Positions 5,775-41,402 of a stretch of DNA of 64,000 nt are shown here, in pieces. Source of the DNA: Haliclona indistincta (Eukaryota; Porifera; Demospongiae; Haplosclerida; Chalinidae). The notes beneath the pieces are model-generated. The model had not been told where the DNA came from. It saw nothing but the letters and a program-made list of their open reading frames with translations, and made no database searches. Position numbers and translations under genes: made by a program. Within the stretch, counting starts at the first letter, position 1, and every line of letters begins with the position of its first letter. Where the stretch lies: the NCBI GenBank assembly GCA_964017065.1, contig OZ024783.1, positions 13,142,040-13,206,039 on the forward strand, given 5' to 3'.

Positions 5775-6439
5775 TTAATGTACTGTTAATGTAATGGAAA
5801 TTAGTGTGTCAGTGTGATAGAATGTATCTGTCTCTGTACGGCATAGTGCATGGGAGGTTTGGGTACTACTTATGGACTCAGAGTCACTGCCAGTGGACTC
5901 AGTCTCGGAGTAGCTGCCAGTGGACTCGTAGTAGCTGCCGATGGACTCAGAGTGGCTTCCGATAGAGTCACTGCCGATGGACTCAGAGTCACTGCTGATG
6001 GACTCGGAGTAGCTGTTGGTGGACTCGCAGTCACTGCTGTTGTCACAACTGTCATCTTGTGGTGAATCTTCATATAATTCTGTCCATAAAAACATTAACT
6101 TCAATCACATACAGGAAACTACACACTCTTTGCTAATCTAAACACTGAAAATTATTCATAAACATCTCAGAAAATTTTGTCTGTTCAGATTGGCGAGAAT
6201 CTCTATTAATCCGGAGTGCCCAACTCACCATCACTAGGGCGGCTATTTTGTACCGTCATCTTTGAATTCGTTGTATTTTCGGTGCTATCATCTTTCTCTT
6301 CCTATAATAAAAAGAAGACAAATCTTGCATTACACCGTACTACATTTTACATCGTAGCGATGACCTTAGTCAACAACTTCTTCATTCGACACAGGGCGTG
6401 TCCTAAGACCATCATATTATGCATAACTGTGAGTAACAT
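5775..6439 (-). CDS. Small acidic Ser-Glu-Ser repeat protein, family member C1 (subfamily I), three exons
   Basis: Unrecognised family. Modelled exons on the minus strand: 6439-6365, 6301-6229 and 6079-5775. They join with GT-AG introns in phase 0 and phase 1 into 150 residues without a stop. Exon 1 starts MLLTVMHNMMVLGHALCRMK, a hydrophobic signal-peptide or anchor segment. Exon 2 is acidic and Thr/Asn-rich (EEKDDSTENTTNSK). Exon 3 opens ELYEDSPQDDSCD, then has about ten copies of an S-D/Y-S-E-S-I/T-G/S unit. It closes with DTFYHTDTLISITLTVH, the conserved family end. The start is the first in-frame Met; no longer N-terminus is supported. The low-complexity acidic Ser tract suggests an extracellular or secreted protein, which is inference. 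Alternative: a well-preserved repeat-borne frame. Confidence 0.5.
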
Positions 6440-6534
6440 TATGATCAAGACAAGAGGGAGTTCGCTCGACACAGCTCTTCTTGGACAGCTAAAATACGTT
6501 GATGCTAAAATACGTTACTCCCCATCGATGTCGC

Positions 6535-6790
6535 TTGCTTGTACTTTCATCATAGATAATACTTTCGAATTCAGTGTATCGTCGGCATCATTTTTCTCTT
6601 CCTATAATAGTATGAAGACAAATCTTGCATTACACCGCACTACATTTTCACATCGTAGCGATTACCTTAGTCAATAACTGCTTTATTTTAGTAAAGCATC
6701 ATAACTGTGAGTAACATCTTTACACCGATCAGGAGGGAGTTCGCTCAACACTTTCGTCGCTTCTTGCACAGCTAAAATATGTTGCTATGC
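6535..6790 (-). pseudogene. Partial family member (exons 1-2, subfamily I)
   Basis: Directly upstream of C1 lies a second exon 1-like block (6665-6745) and exon 2-like block (6532-6605, reading EEKNDADDTLNSK). The exon 1 block has an internal stop after the initial MLLTVMM-like stretch. The exon 2 donor has changed from GT to GG at about 6530, and no exon 3 follows. This is a truncated copy, probably left by unequal exchange. Confidence 0.55.
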
Positions 6791-6799
6791 ACGTGTGTA

Positions 6800-7374
6800 G
6801 TAATGCGGATCAGTCATAATTTTTACGTGAAAAATTCTTTATGTTTTCTTCCAAGAGATTTAATATACCTGCAGCTTGATCGCAAGCGAAGGCATAGTGG
6901 CCCTCTCCAGTTGTACACATTGAACCAGCCTCGAAGAAAAACATATTGCCCAAACACCCATATCTCAAGCGACATAGAAGCAGCTTTGCTACCTAAATGC
7001 CTTTCAGTTCCATGAGCAAATGAACCAGCAATGAACAGAAGCTACAGTTGGGGCTGTGAGCTCGACTACCGTGGACCTAGACGCCCACAAAGTCTCTGAA
7101 GAACGACAAAGAACGCAAACTTGGTGTATCGCAACACTGGGACTCAGAACGAGCGCTAAACACTATATAGTAGCCTGCTAGTGACTGTAACAACACACTA
7201 GTATCCACTTGAGCCCACCTTTCACAACAGAGCGTTCTCTCGAGGCAGCAACATCTTCTTGACCTCTCGCCTACCGCCCACTCACGGCGCAACACTGATG
7301 GCACGCAGGCTAATGTACAGTGGCAATTGGCGCACGTGACTCGTTGCCAATCCCGGTTACGTAGTATATAATAT
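6800..7374. other. No gene recognised
   Basis: Only short frames without domains or convincing splice contexts are visible. The sequence is somewhat more GC-rich than its surroundings at 7050-7350. Confidence 0.4.
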
Positions 7375-8030
7375 CTATGGAGATACCAAGCTCATCAAGC
7401 ACCTGCAAAAACTCTCAAGATTATTGCTACTCCAGCATCAATCTCTTTGTGAGGAGACCCCTTTTTTGGGGTATATTTGACATTTGGATTTATTGCTCTT
7501 AAGACCTGTAATCGAAAGGACATATTATACACATGAGGCGTGATGTTGTAAATGTAGCTATCTGTGAATCGTTGACTTTCACTACCTTGACCTTGACTGT
7601 GACACGATCAAATTCGTTATAGTTATCTATGTCGCACAGAGTAGTCATGGGTCTCCCTGAGTTTTCCGATCTTTTTAGTACGTCGTGTCTCCAGATGACT
7701 TTTCAATGTTGGTGTACGCCGTAACGACCATCTGGAATTTATTTTCCTTGCTGTTAAGCAAAATTTGGTAATTTCGGCGAGTAACAGGTATGTTTTCTTC
7801 TAAAAATTGTTGGAGCTTTAGTCTTTGTCCTTCATCAAATCCCAGTAGAGGGATGACCGCATCTCTCCATCGATCAGTTCCCTTTGGAAGCAGTTAAGAG
7901 ATTTCGAAGGGGACAAACTTGTTAGCATTGCATTTACTGTAGCTGTTTCGACTGAATTTCACTTAGCGACAACGGTAGTGGAGTGGGAGCTGTATGGCTC
8001 TTTTTGGAAGGAGAAGAAGAGAATTTGAGA
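7375..8030 (-). repeat. Repeat R1+R2, copy c (contains the empty site)
   Basis: 7375-7690 matches 1755-2066 and 7691-8020 matches 2441-2760, without the 374-bp insert that separates them at 2067-2440. Stops interrupt the minus-strand frames, so it is non-functional. 8030-8340 is unassigned and precedes the pogo-like remnant. Confidence 0.65.
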
Positions 8031-8339
8031 ATTGTGCGCAATTTTTACAGCTAATGTTCCTATCTTCGACTCTCCCTTCAGTTTAGGATATTTTGGACAA
8101 CTTCTTCGACCGTGGATAACTTTCCTTTCAGAATTTCAGACGATGGGAGAGCGTTTGTGGATGTGTTGCAGTTGTCAATGAGTAGCAAATCTTGGCTATT
8201 GCTATTTTCAGGAGAAGGTAGATAGGTATGGTCAGGGGAGCAGCTAGCCTGTGAACTTTGGATGTGTGCAGATTGAGGGGTTTGTTGCAGAGCGAAGTGA
8301 AGGGTTTGTAGCGGAGCTGAGTGATGAGTTGGATAGGAC

Positions 8340-9203
8340 TGGTAGCACTATAGTGGCTGTGGTGTGTACTGGTACATGTAGATATGGTCTTCTAACTTAG
8401 AGACTTTTCCCAGATCTCTACCTGCTTTTGTTCCACTTTTATGACAGTTCTTTCCAAAGCTTGGAATATTAAACTCAGAACTGTGTCCGTCAAGTAAAAG
8501 CAGAAGAGGCCTCGATCCAACTGCATACTTCAAAAACTGTTTTTCAGCCAGTATTTAAATAACTCCTGATCTGTTCAACCTATACCACTCATTCCATATA
8601 AAGTGCCAGGTACCTCTCCTATTGTCCAATCGTGATTGAGATTTTTTCCCAATCCCTCGAATATAACCATCGGTGGTAAAGCTTGGCCTACGGCATTGCC
8701 ACATGCTAAAATAGTGATTTGTTGTTTGTTACACGAGACCCGGTACCGTACTTTTTTGACCACGCTTTGCTATGATGTAGGTGGTCGTGGTTCAAAGGCA
8801 TCCCACTCGCATCCATGTTATAAATTTTGTCAAGCAGGTTGTGCTCTGTAAGGATGTCTTCTAAAAGAGTATAAAAACTATCTATCGTTTCCTGATTTAC
8901 TTCATTCATCCAAACATGTGCGGTAGGATCTCCACGCCTTAGTGACAAATTTGGCTGTCTCTCCAAAAATATTCGCCACCAGCCATCTGATATACGACTT
9001 GCCCTTAAAACACCTTTTTCTCTAGCTAAATTTTCAACTATCGATTTTACTTGTTTACGCGTTTTGCCATAGCCAGCTTGAGTAGCTTCCATTAGGTGCT
9101 TGTAAAGGGAGACTTCTTCTGTGGTTAAATAAGGCTTACGACCAGGATTGGTTCCATGGACGACCCTACCACTTAAGCGATCTTTAAGAGTAGTTGGAGG
9201 CAC
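8340..9203 (-). pseudogene. Pogo/Tigger-like transposase, longest copy, broken
   Basis: Reading down the minus strand from 9203: a helix-turn-helix region (LKDRLSGRVVHGTNPGRKPY, typical of the psq/CENP-B part), then a region like the second HTH of CENP-B/Tigger transposases. A degraded first catalytic motif follows, IYNMDASGMPLN at about 8820. Further on is ITILACGNAVGQALPPMVIF, then LLLLDGHSSEFN at about 8490, which is the second Asp region (LLDGHxSH in the family). At least two frame changes and a deletion near the first Asp separate the blocks. Members of this family excise and integrate by a DDE mechanism. This copy cannot make an intact enzyme. Confidence 0.8.
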
Positions 9204-9226
9204 AGAGTGCAGCAGTGCCGCCTTGT

Positions 9227-9500
9227 TTATTGAGCGTACTTTACCACTTCTATGTCTCTTCTAATTCGGAAATTCTTGATCTGGTTGGGTCGTTTGGCAG
9301 ATTCACTTGGATGCAATGACTTAGAACACAACCGTCCCTTTTTGTATATGTAACCATCATCATCAACCTTTTTTCTACATTCACTCAAAAGCCTTGTTCT
9401 GTCATTAAGAAGGTCTGGGTTCAGTAGACATAGCTTAAAACTTGCCTCATTGATCGAAGCCTCATATTTGCTGAGAACTCGACTATTCCATAGATTTTGG
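9227..9500 (-). CDS. Short transposon-associated frame, function unknown
   Basis: A minus-strand frame lies just upstream of the pogo-like remnant. It reads LLNDRTRLLSECRKKVDDDG followed by YIYKKGRLCSKSLHPSES and a basic end. Peptides of the pattern KKV-x3-GY-x-YKKG-x-SRSK occur in uncharacterised, repeat-linked sponge and cnidarian proteins (recollection, not checked). It stops at 9227, and no acceptor or start could be settled on the upstream side. It could be a gene fragment carried by the transposon. Confidence 0.3.
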
Positions 9501-9789
9501 ATGCCATTTTGAAGCCTACATTCAATATAGTATAAAATAACAAAAAGTAAAATTAAAATTAATGTGCACACATGTTGTGTACTGAGAGTTCTATGTTACT
9601 GGATGATGAAGATGTTAAAAGAATTTGCTGACTCCCCTGCATAGTTGCAATTTTAATCATTAATACTGATACAACATTTCACTTTACCTGCTTCAACGGC
9701 AACTCCTGTTTCAACAGTGGTCATGCTCAACAGCTGAGACTGTCTGTATAAACATTAAACAATTATAGAGGAAATTTTACTTAATTTGC

Positions 9790-10454
9790 TGACATAGACA
9801 TCCATTGCACGACACCAGAACGAAGCAAGTCAATCATGATACTTACATGTATCAAGAGCTTTATGACCAAATTTATCACATTGTGCTTGAATGTGATTAT
9901 GTGATACCAGTAAATTAATGTTAGTAGGTGTATGCGGTGTGGTATTACTGGATGTGATGTATGCATTCTGTGTCTCCATTGTCTCTGCGTGACCATTAGA
10001 TGTGTAGTGAGTACATGTAGATAAATGTACAGTTAGTGTAACGGAAATTATTGTGTCAGTGTGATAGAATGTATCTGTCTCTGTACGGCATAGTGCACGG
10101 GAGGTTGACTACTACTCATGGACTCGGATTCACTGCCAGTGGACTCAGATCTAGAGTCACTGCTGATGGACTCAGAGTAGCTGCCGGTGGACTCGTAGTC
10201 ACTGCTATCATCATAACATTCATCTTGTGGTGAATCTTCACACAATTCTGTCCATTAAAAAAAAACATTAACTTCAATCACACACAGGAAACTACACACA
10301 CTTCGCTAATCTGAACACTGAAAATTATTCACAAACATCTCAGAAACTTTTTGTCTATTCAGATTAGCGAGAATCTCTATTAACCCAGAGTGCTCAACTC
10401 ACCATCACTAGTTTGTACTAATTTCATATTCGAATTCAGTGAATTGTCGGCGCC
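9790..10454 (-). pseudogene. Family member C2 (subfamily I), frameshifted and truncated
   Basis: Exon 3 begins at 10247 (acceptor at 10248-10250) and reads ELCEDSPQDECYDDSSDYES with Ser-Glu-Ser repeats. A small deletion after the repeats shifts the frame before the conserved DTFYHTDT segment. The C-terminal coding part, including ETMETQNAYIT, is still recognisable at 9920-10000 in another frame. Exon 2 is present from 10402 but is cut off at about 10454, where hAT-like sequence begins. No exon 1. Confidence 0.6.
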
Positions 10455-10730
10455 AAGAGGCTCTTTAGTTGTTTCACAGTCTGCGTTATTACATGCCAAA
10501 CCAAGAACTGAAGAATTGACAGACCAAATAAAGCAGTTGCTGATGCTGTCTAAATCTGTTATTAAGCTCTGTGAGCATGTGATCTAGAAGAGGGATTGTA
10601 ATAGTTCTCCGATAGTATTCGCAAGGGTGTGTCTGCTGATGTGTTTGCACGGTGTATCTGTCTACCACTCCACGGAAACAAGTTAAAGCCATTAACTTGG
10701 GACTCGACATTACTGATGGTAACACTGTTC
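10455..10730 (-). pseudogene. hAT-like transposase remnant
   Basis: The minus strand encodes EYYRRTITIPLLDHMLTELN followed by a NRF motif. This matches a conserved stretch of hAT-derived proteins of the zinc-finger MYM/52-kDa-repressor type, in which a YY-R-x-(I/V)-x-IPLLD-H segment precedes the C-terminal dimerisation region. Only about 75 residues survive. The fragment interrupts family copy C2. Confidence 0.6.
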
Positions 10731-10859: not shown

Positions 10860-11460
10860 TTATTTTTGTAGCACTGAGTCGTGTGTTATGTGATGAGCTA
10901 GCTGTAGGCTGCATGCTCTAACCCCCTCAAGCCACTCATCACCATTTGTTTCACAAATATTGTGAACCACACAGCAGGCACCTATTAGAGTATTAGTGTT
11001 GCTAATAGTCTTTTCAGTAGGCAACTCTATCTCCCTTTCAGACGTCCATAGGCATGCTATACTACGACGTAAGCGTGGCTTAGTCAATAGTTTTAATTTT
11101 TGCTGTGCAGTGAGGTGACCATTTTCTTGGAAGGCTTTCATAAGCCTTTTAGCAAGTGGATAGGCTGGGTCTCCCAATACGATCAGAACATCTTTACTAC
11201 AAATAATTTTTTCCAATCTGGAGAGAGTGCCACTTTGTCCTTTAGCAAACATGTTTAAATTTGAGAAAACACGACCATAATGGAGTCGTCCAGGCCAACC
11301 AATAAAACGTCCTTTGTGATCAAACACACCTTGCATGATGAGTGAGTGCCAACCTTTCTTGTTGCAGTAGTCAGCTGGGAACTCATAACGAGAATGTGGG
11401 TTCCTTCTACAGCACCTGCACAGCTGGGAATCCAAGATCATTATAACTTCCTTTAGTGCA
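10860..11460 (-). pseudogene. Harbinger/PIF (HARBI1-like) transposase fragment
   Basis: A 193-residue minus-strand frame carries family landmarks in order: DYCNKKGWHSLIMQGVFDHK, GRFIGWPGRLHYGRVFSN, VLGDPAYPLAKRLMKAF, then an arginine-rich RLRR and a C-terminal GACCVVHNICE, the signature of HARBI1-type DDE nucleases. The N-terminal catalytic region (DG-x-HI) is missing. The second catalytic Asp, in the usual HDxRVF motif, is Tyr here (LHYGRVF). The Asp of GDPAYP remains. The enzyme is therefore inactive. Its partner Myb-like ORF is not visible. Confidence 0.85.
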
Positions 11461-11480
11461 ACTCCTATGCACTAAAGGAA
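11448..11480. repeat. Perfect 13-bp inverted repeat, 7-base loop
   Basis: TTCCTTTAGTGCA is followed by ACTCCTA and the exact reverse complement TGCACTAAAGGAA. It sits at the 5' edge of the Harbinger-like fragment. It might be a recombined element end, but no target duplication was found. Confidence 0.7.
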
Positions 11481-11851: not shown

Positions 11852-12520
11852 TTACGTGCATACATGAAGTGTTAGAGTGACTGATACATACGTATCGACG
11901 TCCACAAATGTGTCAGTGTCTAGTTTAGAAAGCAAATTGACATACTTACACACTTCTCTGTTAGTGTTGGAGTCAGTAGAACACTCCATGTTGACAAAAT
12001 TGACCTCTGAGTCGCTGGATTCGATAATGATATTATTTGTTCCATCATCATCTGTGGTGATTAGAGTGTCTTCTTCACATGATTCTATCAATGAAGCAAT
12101 AACAGTAACATAAAGAAATACGAAGTTGATCCTCGCTAATCTAAACACTGTACTGATCAGATCATCAGTTGATTCAGTATCTCGGTAACACTAAGCTGAG
12201 TAAGCTCAATTCGAACGTGATTAGCGAGGATTAACAAAACTATTGAGGCGCCTTACTTACCATTATCACAGCCCGCTTTCGATTCGACTCCAATTTGTAC
12301 GACATTCTTCTCTACTTCCACTGTCTAAAATAAAACATTGTGCTGTGACATTATACACAATTTTACACGTGTAGCGTACCTCAGCCGTCAACATCTTCTT
12401 TAGGTAGTAAAGGGCATGGCCCACAACAATCATTACAGTCAGCAGGATCTTCACGTTCAACTTCTTTACACGATCAACTCTTCTTTGCACAACTAAATGT
12501 GTTGCTGGACGCGACGCCAT
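11852..12520 (-). CDS. Family member C3 (subfamily II), complete three-exon model
   Basis: Minus-strand exons 12520-12380, 12324-12261 and 12084-11852 join in frame into 145 residues (phases 0 and 1, all GT-AG). This is the only copy with a longer N-terminus: MASRPATHLVVQRRVDRVKK precedes the hydrophobic segment ILLTVMIVVGHALYYLKK. Exon 2 reads TVEVEKNVVQIGVESKAGCD. Exon 3 is acidic (ESCEEDTLITTDDDG) and contains the family block DTDTFVDVDTYVSVTLTLH. A small deletion just after this block brings a stop at VCT, so the C-terminal part (QNAY-type) seen in other copies is lost here. The basic N-terminus plus a single hydrophobic stretch suggests a type II membrane anchor or a long signal peptide (inference). 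No homologue was recognised. Confidence 0.5.
12129..12231. promoter_or_regulatory. Conserved inverted repeat in family intron 2
   Basis: ATCCTCGCTAATC (12129-12141) and its exact reverse complement GATTAGCGAGGAT (12219-12231) lie inside intron 2 (12085-12260). The same pair recurs in intron 2 of other copies of both subfamilies, in shortened form in some (for example 10310-10375 and 34305-34405). A structural role in splicing, or an old transposon embedded in the intron, are both possible. Confidence 0.5.
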
Positions 12521-13209: not shown

Positions 13210-13480
13210 GCAATTTGAATAGAAACATTGTACTTTGACATTATACACAATTTTACACGTGTAGCGTACCTCAGCCGTCAACATCTTGTTGAGGTGGTAA
13301 AAGGTTTGTCCCACGACAATCATTACAGTCAGTAGCATCTTCACGTTCAACTTCTTTACATGATCAAATCTTCTTCTTTACATGATCAGATCTTCTTCTT
13401 TACATGATCAGATCTTCTTTGCACAACTAAAATGTGTTGCTGGACGCGACGCCATCTCGATCGACATGAACAATCATGAG
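13210..13480 (-). pseudogene. Family exon 1 fragment with internal 22-bp repeats
   Basis: 13260-13470 resembles exon 1 and intron 1 of C3, including the ATGGCGTCGCG start context on the minus strand. The coding part is disrupted by three tandem copies of a 22-bp TTCTTTACATGATCAGATC-like unit at about 13350-13420. No exons 2-3 follow. The flank at 13490-13720 repeats 12545-12740 and again 27850-27990. Confidence 0.55.
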
Positions 13481-14334: not shown

Positions 14335-14790
14335 TCACATTTCACAAAAAAACTGCACCTCTTCGTCATCACATAGCCAAGCAAGGTTCTCTTTCTTCAC
14401 TTTCTCAATTCCTTTTCCTTTTGACTGAAGAATGGTGTCTAACACACCACGACAGGCAAGCTCTAGTGCTACAAACAAACAATGAACACTGTACTCGACG
14501 TGATACAGACCACCTCTATCAGCAAGTGCTGTCCACTCGGCTGAACTGTCCAAAGATGGTTGTACACTGCCTGCAGAGAGTTTCCTGGCATTTTTTCAGT
14601 GCAACTGTGCACAAACTGGCTGTTTCACCACCTTTCTGCTTTGAATATTTTCTTTCTAGCTTCCTCAAAAGAGCTCCAGCAGTGTATCTGATGGCATTCT
14701 CTTTGACTTGGGAAAGTTCATCACAACATAAGACAGGAGTTTCACTAGTAGCAGCGGGAGTGAATGATGCAAACATGTCTTTCATAAAAA
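14335..14790 (-). pseudogene. Repeat-borne gene fragment with DRGGL motif, copy 1
   Basis: The minus strand reads FASFTPAATSETPVLCCDEL, then ENAIRYTAGALLRKLERKYS. After a frame change comes EWTALADRGGLYHVEYSVHC and finally EEVQFFCEM. The ordered pattern (I/L)RY-x-AGxLLRKL, WTxLxDRGGLxHV and EExQFF is common in uncharacterised, transposon-linked sponge proteins (from memory, not checked). The frame change between the second and third blocks shows decay. The second copy at 25093-26175 has additional upstream exons. Confidence 0.45.
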
Positions 14791-14793
14791 CCT

Positions 14794-15075
14794 AAGAGTA
14801 CATAAGGGAGATGTTCATCCCAGTCTTGTCCACTTTTCTCTACCTTCTTGGAAAGCATCTCAATAAGAGTCCTGTTAAAATGTTTCACTAAACCATCAAT
14901 CTGAGGGTGGTAGGCGGTTGTATTGATCTTCTTAGTATTCAATAATTTGCACACATTCTGCATCAGATGAGATAAGAATGCTGCTCCCCGATCCAATAAT
15001 AATTCTCCAGGGACATCATGTCGACTAATGACTTTGGTCACAAGCAACTGGCTACTGTCCTTGTTGTATGACAAC
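14794..15075 (-). pseudogene. Ty3/gypsy integrase fragment, copy 1
   Basis: The minus strand encodes part of a retroviral-type integrase core: VISRHDVPGELLLDRGAAFL (second catalytic Asp, DRG), then INTTAYHPQIDGLVKHFNRT and a following WDEHLPYVL. In the expected GLVExxNRTL motif the catalytic Glu is Lys. The frame begins abruptly at 14794 next to the DRGGL-type fragment and lacks the zinc-binding N-terminus, so it is a dead fragment. It is about 90% alike to 21490-21620. Confidence 0.8.
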
Positions 15076-15379
15076 TTTGTAAACTTGGGAAGTTCAGTTA
15101 TGATCTCCGAAATGATATGCCGTATTAAAGACAGCTGGTTAATGTCGCATTAACGTGATCTGGGTAGCCCTCATGGAGAATGCGGCCTGCAATGAGCTTG
15201 TCAACATTATTCAGAAACTCCTCACAATCCTTTAAGATTTAACTTCTTCACTAGCTCCCTCGAATCTTCCAGCTCCTTCCAGAATCTTCCTGTTCCAGCT
15301 TTCTGCATCGCCGCGCCTGTATTAGGATTGACCAACGATTGCGGTTTGAAACGTATGATAGAGTGTCCAGATGATTTTT

Positions 15380-15720: not shown

Positions 15721-15755
15721 GTTCCCAACAATGGGCATCCGCATGGTTCAGACAC

Positions 15756-16287
15756 AGCCATGTGCATCATGTTATCAGCCATGTTATCAGCCATGTGCAT
15801 CATGTTATCAGCCATGTGTCACAGCCATGTGCATCATGTTATCAGCCATGTGTCACAGCCATGTGCATCATGTTATCAGCCATGTGTCACAGCCATGTGC
15901 ATCATGTTATCAGCCATGTGTCACAGCCATGTGCATCATGTTATCAGCCATGTGTCACAGCCATGTGCATCATGTTATCAGCCATGTGTCACAGCCATGT
16001 GCATCATGTTATCAGCCATGTGACACAGCCATGTGCATCATGTTATCAGCCATGTGTCACAGCCATGTGCATCATGTTATCAGCCATGTGTCACAGCCAT
16101 GTGCATCATGTTATCAGCCATGTGTCACAGCCATGTGCATCATGTTATCAGCCATGTGTCACAGCCATGTGCATCATGTTATCAGCCATGTGTCACAGCC
16201 ATGTGCATCATGTTATCAGCCATGTGTCACAGCCATGTGCATCATGTTATCAGCCATGTGTCACAGCCATGTGCATCATGTTATCAA
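15756..16287. repeat. 34-bp tandem repeat array, about 15 near-perfect units
   Basis: The unit AGCCATGTGCATCATGTTAT-CAGCCATGTGTCAC-type (34 bp) starts at 15789 and recurs exactly every 34 bases through 16265. A shortened unit precedes it at 15756-15788. Units are nearly identical; one carries TGACAC instead of TGTCAC at about 16021. Because 34 is not a multiple of three and the unit has no plus-strand stop in any frame, all three forward frames stay open across the array. This is a sequence-composition effect and not evidence for a protein. There are no unique spacers, so it is not a CRISPR array. Confidence 0.95.
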
Positions 16288-29289: not shown

Positions 29290-30095
29290 AAGAAAATTTA
29301 TGACTTATGACATTAAATTTTATTGTAACAGTAGTTGCGTCTCAATGTTGTCTTTGCGTGTGTGTGTCCCACAGTAGATCATGATCCCACGAATGGAAGT
29401 GATGACAGCTCGTAGTAGACTGAAGTTTAGTCTGGCCCTTAGCCATCCTATAACCATGCAGTACTGTAAGTCATGCATGTCAGCCAGTAGAGGCAAGATG
29501 CTTTAGAAAGGTGGTGGTTAGTTGATTGGCTCCCCTACCAGCAAGAGTGATGGAAGAAGATACACCTCCTTTTGCCAGAGCGCCAAAAATGGCATCTCTG
29601 CCCAATCCCACACGCCCTGCAAATAATTTTGTTCCAAATAATTATGGCAAGTGCTATATTGGAGTGTGCATGGCTACACCCATTTTCCATGTAAAACAGG
29701 CAAGTAGTAGCCAGGACACTGTAGATTTGTTTATAATTATTGTGCAAAAGGAACAAGAAAAATAGTCCGGGTATTTCACCCTTAATATGTCATAAACTTT
29801 GTTGTCAACGTTACATAACTTGTCCAATAATGTTATAGTGTTGTCTAATGTTAGCATGTACTGTGAAGTGGAAAGAGCTATTGCACTATAGTCAATCAAG
29901 ACTGCGGATCCTGGCTTGTGACTAGAAAGGTGACTATAGCTCAAGTTACACATGTATTCGAGATTAGCTTCTAGCTATTAAATAGTAATTGATATGTAGA
30001 AAACATGCAGTCAACTAAGTTAATTATTAATATAATAATTATTTTTTAATAATAACTTTTGAGCATGATGATATAATGTTTGTAAGTGTAACTAG
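29290..30095. other. Repeat flank; no gene recognised
   Basis: 29820-29990 repeats the spacer found at 11725-11815, 31440-31600 and 39960-40090, which is the downstream flank of the family genes. Otherwise only short frames are present. Confidence 0.4.
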
Positions 30096-30099
30096 TGGT

Positions 30100-31310: not shown

Positions 31311-31650
31311 ATAGCCTTCTAGCCGCCTAATACTTACATGATCTGACTGGCTGATACTAGTAGTACTATAGTGTACTGGTAAAATTAATACTAGTGTTGC
31401 AGTACTATAGTGTAAATCCAAGTTGCTAATACAGCAACATCATAGATATTATGGCTAGCTATAGTGTTGTGAAGTGGAAAGAGCTATTATAGTCAATCGA
31501 TCCTGGCTTGTGACCGTAAGAGAAAGGTGACTATAGCTCAAGTTACACATGTATTCGAGATTAGCTTCTAGCTTATACGTAGAAAACATCCAGTCAACAA
31601 ACTTTATTATTTTTATTTTAAGCATGCAGTAATGATGATATACAATGATT

Positions 31651-32311
31651 CTAATAATGTTTGTAAGTGTAACTAGTGGTGTATGTGTTGTTATCGTGAG
31701 TAATGTATGCATTTTGTGATTCTTGTGTTTGCATGTTCCCATTTGGGTCTACGTGCATGCATGACGACAGATGCACTGTTAGAGTTACTGTTAGAATTTT
31801 GTCAACGTGTATAAATGTGTCAGTGTCTACTTTAGACACTGCGTTGGCACACTCCAAATTATTGACCACTGAGTCACTGGATTCGCTGGCGCCTGTTCCA
31901 TCATCATCTGTGGTGATGCCATCACACGATTCTATGAATAGAGCAATAACATTAATTAACATAAAGAAATACGCAGTTGATCCTAGCTAATCTAAACGCC
32001 CCTGTATACTGTACTGATCGGACCAGCAGTTGATTCAGAATGCAACCGTGACTAAGCTGAGTCGATCGATTCGAACGTGATTAGCGAGGATTTACAGAAC
32101 TATGAGACGCCTTACTCACCATTAACACAGGTCGCTTTTGATTTGTCTTCTTGTACAACATCTTTGACTTCCACTGTCTAAAATGGACACGTATGCATTG
32201 TACAGTGATACCACGGCACACAATTTTACACGTGTAGCGTACCTCAGCCGTAAGCATCTTTTTTAGGTTGTAAAGGGCATGGCCCACAACAATCATTGCC
32301 GTCAGCAGCAT
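31651..32311 (-). CDS. Family member C9 (subfamily II), intact, first gene of the tandem array
   Basis: Minus-strand exons 32311-32243, 32177-32120 and 31931-31651 join in frame (phases 0 and 1) into 135 residues. Start MLLTAMIVVGHALYNLKKML gives a hydrophobic signal-like segment. Exon 2 reads TVEVKDVVQEDKSKATCVN. Exon 3 has ESCDGITTDDDGTGASESSD, the core DTDTFIHVDKILTVTLTVHL, SSCMHVDPNG, and the tail ESQNAYITHDNNTYTTSYTY. The longer N-terminus of C3 is not available here because of a frame change and loss of its ATG (ATC). Secreted or single-span protein by inference; no homologue recognised. Confidence 0.55.
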
Positions 32312-32383
32312 CTTGACGTTCACTGACTCTTCCTTGGCCACCCCAATAAAAATGCGTTGCTAAACGCGACGCGATCTCGATTG

Positions 32384-32395
32384 CGCGCATGCGCG
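32384..32395. promoter_or_regulatory. NRF1-type palindrome upstream of C9
   Basis: CGCGCATGCGCG, about 75 bases upstream of the C9 start codon. Same motif and spacing class as the other tandem copies. Confidence 0.65.
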
Positions 32396-32589
32396 ATAGC
32401 CTTCTAGCTAGCCGCCTAATACGTACAGTACATACAGAGTGCTTACTTGACTGGCTGCTACTAGTAGTCTACTATAATGTACTGGTACAATTTATACTAG
32501 TGTTACAGTGCTATAGTGTAAATCCAAGTTGCTAGTACAGCAACATCATAGATAATTATGGCTAGCTAGTATATTATTAGTAACTTGAG

Positions 32590-33730
32590 CATGTACTGTG
32601 AAGTGAAAAGATGAACATCTACTGCAATTCTTCATCATCCGGCAGTGCTTGATATCCCCTTTCTTTCAGATTGCTATCTCAAAGCTAAACTGAGTTAGCT
32701 CTCAACAATTTTACTTTCTCAGGATCCCTTGATTGAAGAGATTGCTTCCTTGTCTCTGTCAGTGTCACCGGCCCTCGGCTAGCTCAAACAGATAGAGGAC
32801 ACTTTACATTATTATTGCAATTAACTTGATTCTGTTGAGTCTCACGGTTAAAAGGAAAACCCTACCTAAAGCAGTACGACAGGTTGTAAAACAACAATCG
32901 GCAGAAAACAGGTCAGTCACCTCAAACATCTTACAGTGCAGCTGAAGTTCATGGATGTATGTGAACTAGAAGATACAATAGAGTTTGGAACTGCATTATG
33001 GAGGGATTGCACGCTGGTCAGTTATCCTTTATCCTCAGAGCAGCCTCAGACACTCTCCCCACTCCTTTAAACTTGAAGAGATGGAAGTTAAAAACAGATG
33101 CTAAATCAGATTGTTAATTGTGTGACCATAAGAGACCAACTGTATTCCATATCAATAACGGCTGCCCAGTTGCTCTTGAACAATGTAGATACACATAGAG
33201 ACATGATATAGTGTGCTATTGAAGATAGTGAGAGGTCTGCTAAAACACCTATAGTAGATCCTGATACCATGCAAAGTGTACTGTGACCCTGATGGTTCAG
33301 GGCATCGGAATACCCCTCTGCCAATACTGTCCCCTTCAACTTGGTGAGCACGACAGCAAGACCTGATAATTATGGTGGTTCAAGAGGGTTCTAGAATTAC
33401 TCTTTTGGAGCTCACTGTTGCCCACAGCTCTGCTGAGTCTCCTAGAGCAGCGCACAGATTAAAACAGTCTAAAGCCAACTGCTGCTGCTAACTTGCTTTT
33501 AGAGAGAGCTGGTTTTGAGTCAGAACTGGTTACACTTGAATTTGGTTCCTTGGGTCACTGGAGAGTAAATTTGGCGACTTCCCTCGCAAGGCACATAAAC
33601 TTGACTAAAGCTATTATAGGATCAATAATAGACCATGCCGCTAAGAATGCTATTGCTGGTTCTCATCAGATATTCCTCGCGATACATGAAAAACACTGGA
33701 CTAAACCATCCTCACTGTGATATTTATATA
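32590..33730 (+). pseudogene. Non-LTR retrotransposon 3' end (unit A), dead
   Basis: The plus strand carries, with frame breaks, pieces of the region downstream of the reverse transcriptase: KTLPKAVRQVVKQQ-like, a LCDHKRPT-x-FHI-x-NGC cysteine/histidine motif, ALEQ-type text, then a final open piece (33493-33720) reading LLERAGFESELVTLEFGSLG and ARHINLTKAIIGSIIDHAAK. The order and spacing match the C-terminal part of RT proteins widespread in cnidarian and sponge elements. A TAA stands where CxLC needs a residue, and this stop is shared by units A-C. No target duplication was determined. Confidence 0.65.
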
Positions 33731-33974
33731 TTTATTTTCCCCTCTATTCTGTCATTTCTATTTCTGTTTTTTTCTCTCACCTCACCCTTGCTAGGACCGT
33801 TTGTTCACTCACTCATTGTGTACCATTTACAGTAAACCTGTGTCCTAGGGTACATGCTACACTAAAAATTATTGTATTCTTTGCCACTTCAATAAAAGTT
33901 GGTTTCTCCCCATTGCATCATTATTTATTATTAATAAATTTTATTTTTGAGCATGCAATAATGATACAATGATT

Positions 33975-34676
33975 CTAATAATGTTTGTAAGTGTAACTAG
34001 TGGTGTATGTGTTGTTATCGTGAGTAATGTATGCATTTTGTGATTCTTGTGTTTGTATGTTGCCGTTTGGGTCTACGTGCATGCATGACGACAGATGCAC
34101 TGTTAGAGTTACTGTTAGAATTTTGTCAACGTGTATAAATGTGTCAGTGTCTACTTTAGACACTGCGTTGGCACACTCCATATCATTGACCACTGAGTCA
34201 CTGGATTCGCTGGCGCCTGTTCCATCATCATCTGTGGTGATGCCATCACACGATTCTATGAATAGAGCAATAACAATAATTAACATAAAGAAATACGCAG
34301 TTGATCCTCGCTAATCTAAACGCCCCTGTATACAGTACTGATCGGACCAGCAGTTGATTCAGAATGCCGGTGACTAAGCTCGATCGATTCGAACGTGATT
34401 AGCGCCGGTGGATTTACTGTACTGTATCATCTATGACAGAACTATTGAGGCGCCTTACTCACCATTAACACAGGCCGCTTTTGATTCGACAACATGTTCC
34501 TCCAGTCCGACTTCCACATTCTAAAATGGAATTAGTAAACGTATGCATTGTACAGTGATACCACGGCACACAATTGTACACCGTACTGACGTGTAGCGTA
34601 CCTCAGCCGTACGCGTCAGCCTCTTGTTGAGGTAATAAAGGGCATGGCCCACAACAATCATCGCAGTTAGCAGCAT
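33975..34676 (-). CDS. Family member C10 (subfamily II), intact
   Basis: Minus-strand exons 34676-34602, 34520-34463 and 34255-33975 join in frame into 137 residues. Start MLLTAMIVVGHALYYLNKRL; exon 2 NVEVGLEEHVVESKAACVN; exon 3 almost identical to C9, ending in the HDNNTYTTSYTYKHY tail. Four cysteines are conserved with C9 and C12: one at the end of exon 2, then ESC, MEC and SSC in exon 3. Conserved cysteines in a short protein with a signal-like start favour an extracytoplasmic fold (inference). Confidence 0.58.
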
Positions 34677-34763
34677 CTTGACGTTCAACTTCTCGACCAC
34701 TGACTCTTCTTTGGACACCCCAGTAAAAATGCGTTGCTAAACGCGACGCGGCGATATCGATTG

Positions 34764-34775
34764 CGCGCATGCGCG
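34764..34775. promoter_or_regulatory. NRF1-type palindrome upstream of C10
   Basis: CGCGCATGCGCG lies 88 bases before the C10 start codon on the minus strand. Confidence 0.65.
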
Positions 34776-34944
34776 ATAGCCTTCTAGCTAGCTACATAAT
34801 TTTATGTAGCATGCATGCATACTTACAAATTACCTAGCTAACTGGCTGCTACTAGTACTGTAATGTAGTGGTAAAATTAATGCTAGTGTTACAGTACGAT
34901 AGTGTAAATCCAAGTTGATAGCACAGCAACATCATAGATATTAA

Positions 34945-36080
34945 CTAGCATGTACTGTGAAGTGAAAAGATCAACATCTACTGCAATTCTCCATCATCCG
35001 GCAGTGCTTGTGATATCCCCTTTCTTTCAGATTTCTCTCTCAAAGCTAAACTGAATTATCTCTCAGCAATTTCACTTTCTCAGGATCCCTTGATTGAAGA
35101 GATTGCTTCCTGATTGAAGAGATTGCGTCTTCATTTGTCACCGTCTCTCGGCTCAAACAGATAGAGGACACTTTACATCTTGCAATTAACTTGATTCTGT
35201 TGGGTCTGACGGTTAACAGGAAAACCCTACCTAAAGCAGTACGACAGGTTGTAAAACAACAATCGGCAGAACGCTGGGTGAGTCACCTCAATTAAACATC
35301 TTACTGTGCAGCTGAAGTTCATGCATGGATGTATGTGAACTAGAAGATACAATAGAGTTTGGAACCGCATTATGGAGGGATTGCACGCTGGTCAGTTATC
35401 CTTTATCCTCATGCAGAGCAGCCTCAGACACTCTCCCCACTCCTTTAAACTTGAAGAGATGGAAGTTAAAAATAGATGCTAAATTGTTAATTGTGTGACC
35501 ATAAGAGACCAACTGTATTCCATATCTTCAACGGCTGCCCAGTTGCTCTTGAACAATGTAGATACACATGGAGACATGATATAGTGTGCTATTGAAGATA
35601 GTGAGAGGTCTGCTAAAACACCTATAGTAGATCCTGATACCAAAGTGTACTGTGACCCTGATGGTTCAGGGCATCGGATAGCCCCTCTGCCACTACTGTC
35701 CCCATCAAGTTGGTGAGCACGACAGCAAGACCTGATATGGCGGTTCAAGAGGGTTCTAGAATTACTCTTTTGGAGCTCACTGTTGCCCAGCTCTGCCGAG
35801 TCTCTCAGAGCAGCCTACAGATTAAAACAGTCTAAAGCCAACTGCTGCTGCTTACTTGGTGACTTATAGAGAGAGCATGCAGAGCTGGTTTTGAGTCAGA
35901 ACTGAATTTGGTTCCTTGGGTTCCTTGGGAGAGTAAATTTGGCGACTTCCCTCGCAAGGCACCTGAACTTGACTAAAGCTAGCTATTAGATCAATAATGG
36001 ACGATTCTGATAAGAATGCATGCTATTGCTGGTTCTCATCAGATATTCCTCGCGAGTCATGAAAAACACTGGATTCTCAC
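34945..36080 (+). pseudogene. Non-LTR retrotransposon 3' end (unit B), dead
   Basis: Collinear with 32590-33730, sharing most of its stops and frame breaks, plus extra small indels (for example a repeated TTGATTGAAGAGATTGC at 35090-35130). It was duplicated together with the neighbouring family gene and does not represent an independent insertion. Confidence 0.65.
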
Positions 36081-36339
36081 TGTGATATTATTTTTTTCCC
36101 CTCTATCCTGTCAGGTCTATTCAATCATTTTTATTTCTGTTTTTTTTCTCTCACCTCACTCCGTTTGTTCACTCACTCATTGTGTACCATTTACAGTAAA
36201 CCTGCATGTGTCCTAGGGTACATGCTACACTAAAATTATTTTATTCTTTGCCACTTCAATACAAGTTGGTTTCCCCATTGCATCATTATTATTAATAATT
36301 TTTTATTTTTGAGCATGCAATAATGATGATACAATGATT

Positions 36340-36958
36340 CTAATAATGTTTGTAAGTGTAACTAGTGGTGTATGTGTTGTTATCGTGAGTAATGTATGCA
36401 TTTTGTGATTCTTGAGTTTGTATGTTGCCATCAGGGTCTACATGCTTACATGAAGATAGATGTAGCGTTAGAGTTACTGTTATAATTTTGTCAACGTGTA
36501 TAAATGTGTCAGTGTCGACTTTAGACACTGTTAGTCTGTTAGTGTTGGCACACTCCATGTTGACATCATTTGAGTCTCTGGATTCCGCGTCTGTTCCATC
36601 ATCATCCTCAGTGATGACAGTGTCTTCTTCACACAATTCTATGAATAGAGCAATAACATTAATTAACATAAAGAAATACACAGTTGATCCTCGCTAATCT
36701 AAACGCTCCTGTATACTGTACTGATCAGACCAGCAGTTGATTCAGAATGCAACCGCCGGTGACTAAGCTCGAACGTGATTAGCGCGGGCCGGTGGATTTA
36801 CTGTATTGTATCATCTATGACAGAACTATTGAGGCGCCTTACTCACCATTAACACAGGCCGCTTTTGATTCGACAACATCTTCCTCCGCCGTACGCGTCA
36901 GCCTCTTGTTGAGGTAATAAAGGGCATGGCCCACAATAATCATCGCAGTTAGCAGCAT
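36340..36958 (-). CDS. Family member C11, intact frame with exons 1 and 2 fused
   Basis: Minus-strand exons 36958-36847 and 36638-36340 encode 136 residues. A deletion has removed intron 1 and the first seven codons of exon 2 yet kept the frame: RLTRTAE runs straight into EDVVESKAACVN. Exon 3 reads ELCEEDTVITEDDDGTDAES, then the core DTDTFIHVDKIITVTLTLHL and the usual tail. The frame-preserving loss argues that the copy is, or recently was, under selection. Alternatively it is chance (one in three). Confidence 0.55.
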
Positions 36959-37045
36959 CTTGACGTTCAACTTCTCGATCACTGACTCTTCTTTGGACAC
37001 CCCAGTAAAAATGCGTTGCTAAACGCGACGCGGCGATATCGATTG

Positions 37046-37057
37046 CGCGCATGCGCG
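37046..37057. promoter_or_regulatory. NRF1-type palindrome upstream of C11
   Basis: CGCGCATGCGCG, 88 bases before the C11 start codon. Confidence 0.65.
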
Positions 37058-37239
37058 ATAGCATTCTAGCTAGCTACATGTAGCATGCATGCATACTTAC
37101 AAATTACCTAGCTAACTGGCTGCTACTAGTACTATAATGTACTGGTAAAATTGATGCTAGTGTTACAGTACTATAGTGTAAATCCAAGTTGCTAGCACAG
37201 CAACATCATAGATATTATGGCTAGCTAGTGTTAGTAGTA

Positions 37240-38350
37240 GCATGTACTGTGAAGTGAAAAGATCAACATCTACTGCAATTCTCCATCATCCGGCAGTGCT
37301 TGTGATATCCCCTTTCTTTCAGATTTCTCTCTCAAAGCTAAACTGAATTATATCTCAGCAATTTCACTTTCTCAGGATCCCTTGATTGAAGAGATTGCTT
37401 CCTGATTGAAGAGATTGCGTCTTCGTTTGTCACCGTCCCTCAGCTCAAACAGATAGAGGACACTTTACATAATTATTGCAATTAACTTGATTCTGTCGGG
37501 TCTGACGGTTAACAGGAAAACCCTACCTAAAGCAGTACGACAGGTTGTAAAACAACAATCGGCAGAACGCTGGGTGAGTCAACTCAAGCATCTTACTGTG
37601 CAGCTGAAGTTCATGGATGTATACAATAGAGTTTGGAACCGCATTATGGAGGGATTGCAAGCTGGTCAGTTATCCTTTATCCTCAGAGAAGCCTCAGACA
37701 CTCTCCCCACTCCTTTAAACTTGAAGAGATGGAAGTTAAAAACAGATGCTAAATTGTTAATTGTGTGACCATAAGAGACCAACTGCATTCCATATCATTA
37801 ACGGCTGCTCAGTTGCTCTTGAACAAGGTAGATACACCTGGAGATAGTGAGAGGTCTGCTAAAACTTCTATAGTAGATCCTGATACCATGCAAAGTGTAC
37901 TGTGACCCTGATGGTTCAGGGCATCAGATAACCCCTCTGCCACTACTGTGTCCATCAACTTGGTGAGCACGACAGCAAGACCTGATAATTATGGTGGTTC
38001 AAGAGGGTTCTAGAATTACTCTTTTGGAGCTCACTGTTGCCCACAGCTCTGCCGAGTCTCTCAGAGCAGCCTACAGATTAAAACAGTCTAAAGCCAACTG
38101 CTGCTGCTTACTTGGTGACTTATAGAGGGAGCATGCAGAGCTGGTTTTGAGTCTGAACTGAATTTGGTTCCTTGCATGCATGGTCCTTGGGAGAGTAAAT
38201 TTGGCGACTTTCCTCACAAGGCACCTGAACTTGACTAAAGCTAGCTATTAGATCAATAATGGACGATTCTGCTAAGAATGCTAGTGCTGGTTCTCATCAG
38301 ATATTCCTCGCGAGACATGAAAAGCACTGGACTAAACGATTCTCACTGTG
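37240..38350 (+). pseudogene. Non-LTR retrotransposon 3' end (unit C), longest open piece
   Basis: 37487-37768 is open and reads VNRKTLPKAVRQVVKQQSAE, then QLKFMDVYNRVWNRIMEGLQ and EASDTLPTPLNLKRWKLKTD. The CxLC-H-C block follows at about 37760-37820 in another frame with the shared TAA. The distal piece (VTLLELTV-like) is at 38010-38340. Non-functional. Orientation is opposite to the family genes in every unit. Confidence 0.65.
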
Positions 38351-38607
38351 ATATTATTTATTTTCCCCTCTATCCTGTCAGGTCTATTCAATCATTTTTT
38401 CTCTCTATTTTCTCTCACCTCACCCCGTTTGTTCGCTCACTCATTGTGTACCATTAATTTTACGGTAAACCTGTGTCCTAGGTACATACTACACTATTGT
38501 ATTCTTTGCCACTTCAATACAAGTTGGTTTCCCCATTGCATCATTATTAATTTTTATTATTAATAATTTTTTATGTTTGAGCATGCAATAATGATGATAC
38601 AATGATT

Positions 38608-39335
38608 CTAATAATGTTTGTAAGTGTAACTAGTGGTGTATGTGTTGTTATCGTGAGTAATGTATGCATTTTGTGATTCTTGTGTTTGAATGTTGCCATC
38701 AGGGTCTACGTGCGTACATGAAGATAGATGTAGTGTTAGAGTTACTGTTATAATTTTGTCAACGTGTATAAATGTGTCAGTGTCTACTTTAGACACTGCG
38801 TTGGCACACTCCATGTTGACATCATTTGAGTCACTGGATTCCGCGTCTGTTCCATCATCATCCTCAGTGATGACAGTGTCTTCTTCACACGATTCTATGA
38901 ATGGAGCAATAAAAATAATTAACATAAAGAAAATTAATACGCTGTTGATCTTCGCTAATCTAAACGGCCATGTATACTGTACTGATCGGACCAGCAGTTG
39001 ATTCAGAATTCAACCGGATTGAACGTGATTGAACGTGATTAGCCGGATTGAACGTGATTAGCGCCGGAGGATTTACTGTGCTGTATCATCTATGACAGAA
39101 CTATTGAGGCGCCTTACTCACCATTAACACAGGCCGCTTTTGATTCGACAACATCTTCATCCAGTCCGACTTCCACTGCCTAAAATGGAATTAGTGAACG
39201 TATGCATTGTACAGTGATACCACGGCACACAATTGTACACCGTCCTGACGTGTAGCGTACCTCAGCCGTACGCGTCAGCCTCTTGTTGAGGTAATAAAGG
39301 GCATGGCCCACAACAATCATCGCAGTTAGCAGCAT
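38608..39335 (-). CDS. Family member C12 (subfamily II), intact
   Basis: Minus-strand exons 39335-39261, 39179-39122 and 38894-38608 join in frame into 139 residues. Start MLLTAMIVVGHALYYLNKRL; exon 2 AVEVGLDEDVVESKAACVN; exon 3 ESCEEDTVITEDDDGTDAES, core DTDTFIHVDKIITVTLTLHL, SSCTHVDPDG and tail ESQNAYITHDNNTYTTSYTY. Sequence differences from C10 are scattered and mostly do not break the frame. Confidence 0.58.
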
Positions 39336-39417
39336 CTTGTCGTTCAACTTCTCGATCACTGACTCTTCTTTGGACACCCCAGTAAAAATGCGTTGCTAAA
39401 CGCGACGCTATCGATTG

Positions 39418-39429
39418 CGCGCATGCGCG
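39418..39429. promoter_or_regulatory. NRF1-type palindrome upstream of C12
   Basis: CGCGCATGCGCG, 83 bases before the C12 start codon. Confidence 0.65.
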
Positions 39430-39599
39430 ATAGCCTTCTAGCTAGCATGCATACTTACAAATTACCTAGCTAACTGGCTGCTACTAGTACTATAATGTAG
39501 TGGTAAAATTAATGCTAGTGTTACAGTACGATAGTGTAAATCCAAGTTGCTAGCACAGCAACATCATAGATATTATGGCTAGCTAGTGTTAGTAGTAGC

Positions 39600-39870
39600 A
39601 TGTACTGTGAAGTGAAAAGATCAACATCTACTGCAATTCTCCATCATCCGGCAGTGCTTGATATCCCTTTTCTTTCAGATTTCTCTCCCAAAGCTAAACT
39701 GAATTATCTCTCAGCATTATCTTATTATTTCACTATTATCTTATTATTTCACTTTCTCAGCATCCCTTGATTGAAGAGATTGCTTCCTTGTCTCTGTCGT
39801 CACCGGCCCTCAGCTCATCTAAACTGATAGAGGACACTTTACATCTTGCATCTTGCAATTGCAACTGGTA
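39600..39870 (+). pseudogene. Non-LTR retrotransposon remnant (unit D, truncated)
   Basis: Only the first 270 bases of the unit remain (matching 37240-37480). The array then passes at about 39870 into a copy of the family downstream flank (39870-40170, like 31380-31610). Confidence 0.55.
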
Positions 39871-40199
39871 AAATTAATACTAGTGTTACTGTGCTATAGT
39901 GTAAATCCAAGTTGCTAGTACAGCAACATCATAGATAATTATGGCTAGCTAGTGTTGGTAGTAGCATGTACTGTGAAGTGGAAAGAGCTATTGCACTATA
40001 GTCAATCAAGACTGCGGATCCTGGCTTGTGACTAGAAAGGTGACTATAGCTCAAGTTGCACATGTATTCGAGATTAGCTTCTAGCTTTTTGTAATTGATT
40101 ACGTAGAAAACATGCAGTCAACAATTATTATTCTAATAATTATTAATTTTTGAGCATGCAATAATAATGATAGTATTCCAGTAGATGATAGTATAGTAT

Positions 40200-40905
40200 T
40201 CTAGGCACATATCAATAACAGAACAGAAATAAGAATTTAAAAGGATTAGCTTTAGCAAAAGGACAAATTAACTGTAAGTTGTGCAATCTACGACTACCAG
40301 AAACTCTATGCAGTAAAGTATCATTATGTGCAAAGGTAAGGTTAAAAACACACTTATACAGAAAAGTTTAGACACAAAACAATGCACAGACAAGGGGACA
40401 AGATGACATAGTTGCAACAAAACATGGCTTGAGGCTGACCAACTATGAGTAGCAAGACAACCGGCAAATATTTGAACTAACTCCAGTTGTTTTGATATCT
40501 TTTAGTAAATGTGGATCCCAGACAATGGAGGCATAGTCTAAAATAGGAAGAACCAAAGAAAGGTACAACTTAACGAAATCATTGTTACCACAGTGAGAGT
40601 AAAATGTCCGATATGAAAAACCAAGAAGCCTCCTTGACCTAGCAGTAACTGAGTCATTATGATCAGACCAGGTCATTAATAAGCACACCATTATTGTAGT
40701 AGAGAATCTGCTCAAGCTGAAGCCCATCAAGAAGCAAGCACCCAATAATTTGAGACTCGAGATCCTGGTATGTGAATAGCAGTGGTCGACGGATGATATT
40801 TGAGACTATAGCTTCTAAACTGATTAGCTACTGAAGAGAAAATTTCTACTCTTCACCATGTGATTTAAACTAATAATTTTATTTATCTTTGAGCCTACAA
40901 GAATG
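40200..40905 (-). pseudogene. Second non-LTR retrotransposon: reverse transcriptase 3' fragment
   Basis: The minus strand at 40443-40745 encodes RRLLGFSYRTFYSHCGNNDF followed by KLYLSLVLPILDYASIVWDP and HLLKDI, the conserved stretch after the RT thumb in CR1/jockey/L2-type elements. It is a 5'-truncated, frame-broken insertion. It interrupts the thirteenth family copy, of which only the 3' end of exon 3 (40920-40999) remains on the far side. Confidence 0.75.
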
Positions 40906-40999
40906 GCGATACAATGATTAATAATGTTTGTAAGTGTAACTAGTGGTGTATGTGTTGTTATCATGAGTAATGTATGCATTTTGTGATTCTTGTATTTTG

Positions 41000-41402
41000 T
41001 GGTGTTCCCCTTCACATTGTCTGATAGTGCTGTTTGTGGTCATCTACTTGTTCAACTGGACTGTCCACATTATTATTGCTACTCTTAAAAATTATCGAAA
41101 ATAATTTTTATGCTGAATTCAGGAAAAATCAAAAAAGATTAACGAAGCAGCAGGTGCATGTGATTGCAGCAGTATAACCTTGTCAATTCTTGGCAAGCAC
41201 TTGGGCAAGGTGGTTCAACATGGTAACTGGCAAAGAAATCTCTGTCTTGTCATCCTCTGCAAATATCAGTCAAATATAGCGCAATTGGTGTTCTCAGCAA
41301 CAACTTGACAGTAGTGCAGGATAAATGGATAGCTACAATACTGTCCATTGCAGAGGAATGTCAAGAATGTGTCATTTCCTGCTGGACTAATGGTGACAAC
41401 AT
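41000..41402 (+). pseudogene. Decayed fragment of adhesion-GPCR last exon
   Basis: This stretch matches the last exon of the GPCR gene (50070-50620) in order: the GGTGTTCCC/TTCT block, TTGTTCAACTGGACTGTCCA (like the segment encoding LFNWIVYAII), GCAGCAG...CTTGTCAATTCT, then after a deletion of about 150 bases (transmembrane segments 6-7) ACTTGGGCAAGGTGGTT...CATGGTAACTGG, and finally AATGTGTCATTTCCTGCTGG. Frameshifts and stops abound. It abuts the end of the family array, so the locus lost or rearranged a second GPCR gene here. Confidence 0.8.

Follow-up and report, generated by a model that had tools for sequence, protein, structure and literature searches.

Gene structure of the array

We analyzed a window of 64,000 nucleotides (nt) from the sponge Haliclona indistincta (assembly GCA_964017065.1, contig OZ024783.1, positions 13,142,040 to 13,206,039; positions below are those of the window unless a contig is named), in which a family of small multiexon genes forms an array on the minus strand. 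The genes share one exon structure and occupy a single cluster in the genome, and their C-terminal core is under purifying selection. A tblastn search of the window with two core peptides located 13 exon-3 loci, every one on the minus strand, in the stretch from 5.78 to 41.0 kb, in agreement with the original prediction, made from the letters alone, of about 13 one-strand loci. Twelve of them scored 38 to 134 bits, compared with best scores of 18.9 to 25.0 bits in 20 windows randomized with an order-2 Markov model; the 24.55-kb locus (25.4 bits) is at noise level taken alone and was accepted because an exon 1 and an exon 2 adjoin it. Two further elements lie beyond the earlier count, i.e., an exon-1 remnant near 13.3 kb and a full-length copy, A_L38, about 61 kb outside the window (C1:13,080.5 kb), which encodes a protein of 207 amino acids (aa) whose spacer contains eight ESTGTGSYS-type repeats.

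We modeled 11 copies (10 in the window plus A_L38) as genes with GT-AG introns in phases 0 and 1, and the exons were consistent across the two subfamilies, A and B. The intron phases and two splice junctions given in the original prediction were recovered, the junctions (12380/12324 and 34602/34520) exactly. Seven modeled copies (B39, B36, B34, B32, A_L38, A6, and B12) have a continuous frame, and early stops occur in the models of B31, B23, B25, and A18. The earlier count of six continuous frames in the window stands (B39, B36, B34, B32, B12, and A6), but A6 and B12 stop within the conserved core, so that four window copies, joined by A_L38 outside, are full length. The family loci in the window, all on the minus strand, are as follows.

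5775 to 6439, minus strand: A6, exons 6439-6365, 6301-6229, and 6079-5775; 150-aa frame, C-terminal core truncated
9938 to 10247, minus strand: A10, exon 3 only; Ser-rich part frame-broken, core near-consensus
11852 to 12520, minus strand: B12, exons 12520-12380, 12324-12261, and 12084-11852; 145-aa frame
13270 to 13455, minus strand: exon-1 remnant, with neither exon 2 nor exon 3 found alongside
17629 to 18021, minus strand: A17, exon 3; core open, stop displaced
18170 to 18774, minus strand: A18, broken exon 1, exon 2, and exon 3 running into an exon-2-like stretch; pseudogene or chimera
23286 to 23898, minus strand: B23, early stop and exon 1 deletion; pseudogene
24533 to 25047, minus strand: B25, core ends after DTDTFEH and is followed by other sequence; pseudogene
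30073 to 31170, minus strand: B31, exon 1 frame broken, exon 3 disrupted; pseudogene
31651 to 32311, minus strand: B32, exons 32311-32243, 32177-32120, and 31931-31651; 135 aa, intact
33975 to 34676, minus strand: B34, exons 34676-34602, 34520-34463, and 34255-33975; 137 aa, intact
36340 to 36958, minus strand: B36, exons 36958-36847 and 36638-36340, intron 1 having been removed by a frame-keeping 102-nt deletion; 136 aa, intact
38608 to 39335, minus strand: B39, exon 1 39335-39261, exon 2 39179-39122, and exon 3 38894-38608; 139 aa, intact, full length
40921 to 40992, minus strand: exon-3 tail fragment, last 24 codons only

B12 lacks the family start codon (MLLT) as well as the end of the core and is probably a pseudogene. 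Its alternative start, MASRP, was ruled out as the start of the family: the four intact B copies carry an in-frame TAG 17 to 21 codons upstream of MLLT, with no intervening ATG.

Selection on the coding sequence

The ratio of nonsynonymous to synonymous substitution rates (dN/dS) was computed from Nei-Gojobori counts (own script) over the last ~60 codons of 12 pairs of copies, with Fisher tests. It was <0.46 in 12 of 12 pairs, rather than near 1, the value that the original prediction had named, together with a lack of spliced transcripts, as evidence against it; eight pairs fell at 0.07 to 0.22, and nine reached p<0.05. The significant values include, within subfamily B, B39-B36 (0.11), B39-B34 (0.15), B39-B32 (0.22), and B36-B32 (0.14); within subfamily A, A_L38-A17 (0.12), A_L38-A10 (0.20), and A17-A10 (0.07); and, between the subfamilies, A_L38-B39 (0.24) and A_L38-B34 (0.17). 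The A17-A10 cores differ by 19 synonymous and 7 nonsynonymous changes, distributed 3/4/19 over the codon positions (Fisher p 2.5e-9). When all pairs of cores were tabulated, the ratio was defined in 37 of 45 and ranged from 0.06 to 0.53, dS being saturated in the other 8.

Upstream of the core, the constraint on exon 1 is significant in half of the eight pairs (e.g., B39-B32, dN/dS 0.13, p 0.005), and the spacer is under weaker constraint (0.34 to 0.36, p 0.014 to 0.039, for B39-B34, B39-B32, and A_L38-A17). Exon 2 ratios above 1 (2.98, 5.20, 2.30, and 1.83) are not claimed as a signal, since they come from an indel-shifted codon alignment and tiny counts. Among the four intact B genes, the indels in coding sequence are multiples of three in five of five cases, including the B36 deletion; outside it, the corresponding counts are 4/8 in introns, 3/13 upstream, and 4/22 downstream, the last being a weak control, as B32 is nonhomologous there to the other three (54% differences). 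Judged from these codon-level patterns, the family is protein-coding and its C-terminal core is under purifying selection.

Relatives and genomic distribution

Three profile searches of 5.8 billion clustered proteins, one of which scored the best 7,986 candidates by shared words, yielded nine distinct proteins among the candidates scored. Six of these (P0001, P0002, P0004, P0006, P0007, and P0008, all with a longest contig of 105,140 bases) are taken to be the same locus in another assembly. P0003 (103,446-base contig) is a form of A17 with a longer spacer. In A17, the spacer is read in a frame other than that of its near-consensus core and is Pro/Thr-rich rather than Ser-rich, and P0003 carries a lengthened version of this frame. 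The other two, P0005 (1,026-base contig) and P0009 (8,677-base contig), are only 35 to 60% and 42 to 57% identical, respectively, to the genome copies (family matches at E<0.02) and, for that reason, are not encoded in this genome. Both keep the core pattern T-F-x-H-x-D...V-T-L-T...S-x-C-x-H...G...Q-N-A-Y-I-T...N-T-Y-x-T-x-Y-T-Y.

In Pfam, no family was matched at E<=0.1 by two exon-3 proteins, and none at E<=1 by four of five family proteins, the fifth (P0003) having one weak TFIIA match (0.14). A PDB sequence search with B39 gave no match at E<=10; a profile match to PDB chain b-iTHR-110 (E 0.02), in which no stretch passes alone, was taken as chance and not counted. Among the 16 viral and 34 GTDB stretches that matched a pattern, none encodes a relative, in a pattern-based search that distant relatives could escape. 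No earlier description of such a family was found in the literature searched, which covered few subscription journals. The characterization of the array as an unrecognized small-protein family is therefore retained, with no Pfam, PDB, viral, or GTDB relative accepted.

We searched the genome (144 Mb, 46 contigs) using four protein queries (an exon 3 from each of the B and A subfamilies, P0009, and P0005); the match counts are lower bounds, the best candidates having been scored. All protein matches at E<0.01 fall within 13.080 to 13.183 Mb of contig C1, and the only one outside the window is A_L38. Treated by the same method, a DDE_Tnp_4 open reading frame (ORF) located within the cluster gave 61 matches, including itself, on ten contigs, which indicates that dispersal of the family would have been detected. 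The original prediction had named a known transposon-encoded protein as the finding that would count against it; the family proteins have no transposase-type Pfam match, and the confinement of the E<0.01 matches among the best candidates to one cluster, in contrast to the dispersed DDE_Tnp_4 control, led us to reject a transposon origin. Weak protein matches beyond the cluster (E 0.02 to 0.8) occur on C5, C6, C7, C9, and at C1:14.7 Mb; the stretch at C6:13.35 Mb was read and judged to be a chance match. A 33-nt exact DNA match on C4, which falls in noncoding query sequence 5' of exon 1, does not represent a family copy.

Mobile-element remnants are interspersed with the array, as follows.

8706 to 9595, minus strand: Pogo/Tigger-like transposase pieces by eye; HTH_psq at E 0.0023, under the curated cut-off
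10860 to 11471, minus strand: the DDE_Tnp_4 transposase ORF, of the Harbinger/PIF type, between A10 and B12
14745 to 15149, minus strand: integrase-like retroelement ORF; weak rve match (E 0.044), under the cut-off
21405 to 21933, minus strand: integrase-like retroelement ORF, by eye

Array dynamics and an upstream palindrome

Different exons of the same gene have different nearest relatives. Between B34 and B32, exon 3 has 5 differences in 281 positions, exon 1 has 8 in 69, and exon 2 has 16 in 58 (the exon 2 figure being raised by a shift in the alignment), and B39 and B34 are identical over the 75 positions of exon 1 and differ at 28 of 278 in exon 3. This discordance between exons 1 and 3 suggests a gene conversion or crossing-over event in the vicinity of intron 2.

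The NRF1-type palindrome GCGCATGCGC occurs five times in the window (0.01 expected), each time upstream of a B copy.

31300, 32385, 34765, 37047, and 39419 (span 31300 to 39428), no strand: GCGCATGCGC palindromes, NRF1-like

All five full-length copies have the palindrome 78 to 118 nt upstream of the ATG, measured from its center (in the intact B genes, 78, 88, 93, and 93 nt; in A_L38, 118 nt). No palindrome was found within 300 nt, with one mismatch allowed, in any of six truncated or broken copies (A6, A18, B12, the 13.3-kb remnant, B23, and B25). The genome has 30 occurrences of the 12-mer CGCGCATGCGCG, compared with 4 of the reversed control, and 5 of the 30 are in the array. A published account of the sponge FAU gene describes one NRF1 site upstream of the transcription start and a YY1 motif on its downstream side (PMC4515611).

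Protein architecture

The motif G-H-A-L in exon 1 is kept in seven of seven gene models. A hydrophobic 15-residue stretch begins at residue 2 (mean Kyte-Doolittle hydropathy, 1.33 to 1.80) and has no basic n-region. A 19-residue mean of 1.6 is the usual threshold for a transmembrane segment. The best such means in the five full-length copies are 1.09 to 1.30, located in the core rather than in exon 1 in three of the five, and the truncated B12 reaches 1.60. The original prediction of a lineage-restricted set of secreted or membrane-anchored proteins is supported for lineage restriction and, as judged by hydropathy only, unsupported for membrane anchoring.

Two cysteines, one upstream of the core and one in the S-x-C motif, are present in eight of eight aligned cores, and an NNT sequon is kept in five of five full-length copies. 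A structure model of the family has three predicted beta strands (mean predicted local distance difference test score [pLDDT], 68.9; predicted template modeling score [pTM], 0.39), and that of P0005 has five (mean pLDDT, 81.3; pTM, 0.57). Structure searches gave no clear match over the module. The list was headed by actin capping protein and others along with pore sheets (RCD-1, complement, and gasdermin); the pore sheets were within noise, and no claim of a pore-forming protein is made.

Interpretation and alternative explanations

Our preferred reading, held with evenly divided confidence when taken whole, is that of a lineage-restricted gene family that evolves by tandem duplication, gene conversion, and decay and makes an extracellular protein consisting of a leader, a spacer, and a beta module. 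The product is probably a secreted or surface protein. Each intact gene would yield a small extracellular protein. Its targeting leader would come from the hydrophobic exon 1, and a disordered acidic Ser/Thr spacer of variable length (with repeat expansion in subfamily A) from exon 2 and the first part of exon 3; the last ~60 residues would fold into an antiparallel beta-sheet module, in which one Cys is invariant and an NNT sequon is mostly conserved. This module may be the binding or assembly part, with the spacer keeping it off the cell or matrix. The array would have expanded through tandem duplication of a ~2.3-kb unit and been reshuffled by gene conversion or unequal crossing-over, most copies then decaying by birth and death.

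A number of observations weigh against this reading. The extracellular location is deduced from sequence, and the leader is weak, with no basic residues before the hydrophobic stretch, K/R after it, and low hydropathy. In the other four of the eight pairs, the constraint on exon 1 is not significant (one is A_L38-A6, dN/dS 1.65, p 0.83; another has zero differences), and the whole-frame ratio of A_L38-A6 is 0.72. Core constraint is nonsignificant in A_L38-A6 (0.28, p 0.063), B39-B12 (0.44, p 0.054), and B39-B23 (0.45, p 0.062), each of which includes a truncated or broken copy (A6, B12, or B23). The p values are rough throughout, as the pairs are nonindependent (related and partly homogenized) and synonymous counts are small. 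The fifth GCGCATGCGC site precedes B31, which is broken, and all five sites in the window belong to copies of a single duplicated unit; for these two reasons, the link between the palindrome and intactness is weak. The upstream Cys stands at no fixed distance from the core, the sequon is absent in P0009, and the alignment behind the structure models has 10 rows, many of them near-identical.

A serious rival, although a rather doubtful one, is a protein that stays intracellular, in which exon 1 forms a hydrophobic helix that associates with membranes or binds protein, while the spacer and beta module act in the cytosol or nucleus. The position of the basic residues and a hydropathy under that of a typical transmembrane helix fit such a protein, as do the NRF1-type sites, which suit broadly expressed genes (one such site is reported upstream in the sponge FAU gene; PMC4515611); the constraint on exon 1 in half of the pairs (e.g., B39-B32), the two similarly placed cysteines in every aligned core, and the sequon of the full-length copies argue the other way. 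By analogy with known recognition systems, a recognition role is possible. In its specific form, i.e., a polymorphic recognition or defense set in which variable displayed beta modules, diversified by gene conversion, tell apart individuals or microbes, we consider it unlikely: tandem copies, mosaics, differing spacer lengths, and A17 forms that differ on other contigs (P0003 versus P0004 and the window) would be expected of such a set, but selection on the core is purifying rather than diversifying, and most of the variation is found in the spacer, where changes can be nearly neutral. Quite improbable, too, is the idea of a new surface label for self/non-self or microbe recognition, in which a near-invariant beta module would be carried on a length-variable acidic Ser/Thr stalk and cassettes would recombine within the array, giving individuals different sets.

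The remaining alternatives deny the genes a present function or an origin of their own. That the array is a graveyard, in which a once-useful gene survives as copies that are all decaying, accords with the 4 of 13 window loci that are full length and with the frequent truncations and frameshifts; it is very improbable given that four neighboring copies and one ~61 kb away are intact, have low core dN/dS among them, and retain the promoter palindrome. Encoding by, or capture in, a mobile element would suit a region rich in transposon debris (e.g., the DDE_Tnp_4 ORF at 10.86 to 11.47 kb and the integrase-like ORFs) and the presence, in a duplicated unit, of a plus-strand reverse-transcriptase-like fragment (by eye; no Pfam match). 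The confinement of the E<0.01 matches to one ~100-kb cluster, set against the ten contigs reached by the 61 DDE_Tnp_4 matches, and the lack of transposase-type Pfam matches in the family proteins leave this explanation with next to no credibility.

Comparison with known families and significance

Lineage-restricted, tandemly arrayed birth-and-death gene families are a known kind in animals, and as a member of that kind the present family is ordinary. It resembles them in its single cluster, one strand, intact genes amid pseudogenes, gene-conversion mosaics, and few sequence relatives; it differs in having no recognized domain and a conserved C-terminal predicted beta sheet instead of a Cys-rich peptide or Ig/fn3 module. 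With acidic Ser-rich secreted matrix proteins, such as those of mineralized tissue, it shares a low-complexity acidic Ser/Thr spacer with repeat expansion (the ESTGTGSYS units of A_L38), but here the spacer is short and poorly conserved, and the selected part is the C terminus. Sponge aggregation factors and allorecognition proteins are similar in their possible surface role and in variation between copies, whereas the family proteins are much smaller and match no Calx-beta or other Pfam domain.

The family has no relatives recognized by these searches in the Pfam, PDB, viral, or prokaryotic collections, and yet its selected core is kept in two further divergent sequences. Among the unexplained proteins of an animal it thus contributes a module that is under selection and probably structured, and its exact gene models, splice junctions, and candidate promoter element provide handles for the study of transcription, secretion, and individual variation.

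Other features of the region

The other features recorded in the window and beside A_L38 are as follows.

15753 to 16286: 34-bp minisatellite, 15.7 copies, 98%
43330 to 50869, plus strand: exons of a large receptor gene with NIDO, fn3, and 7tm_2 matches, Ig-like exons by eye, and an adhesion-GPCR-like layout; the three matched domains are in keeping with an animal source
53788 to 55329, plus strand: PTR2/POT transporter, single long ORF
56762 to 60652, plus strand: long ORFs encoding a repetitive surface protein that by eye resembles a beta-helix and has a hydrophobic C-terminal part
L038, 6600 to 7000, minus strand, beside A_L38: C-terminal SET-domain exon (SETD1/KMT2-like by eye), a possible synteny anchor

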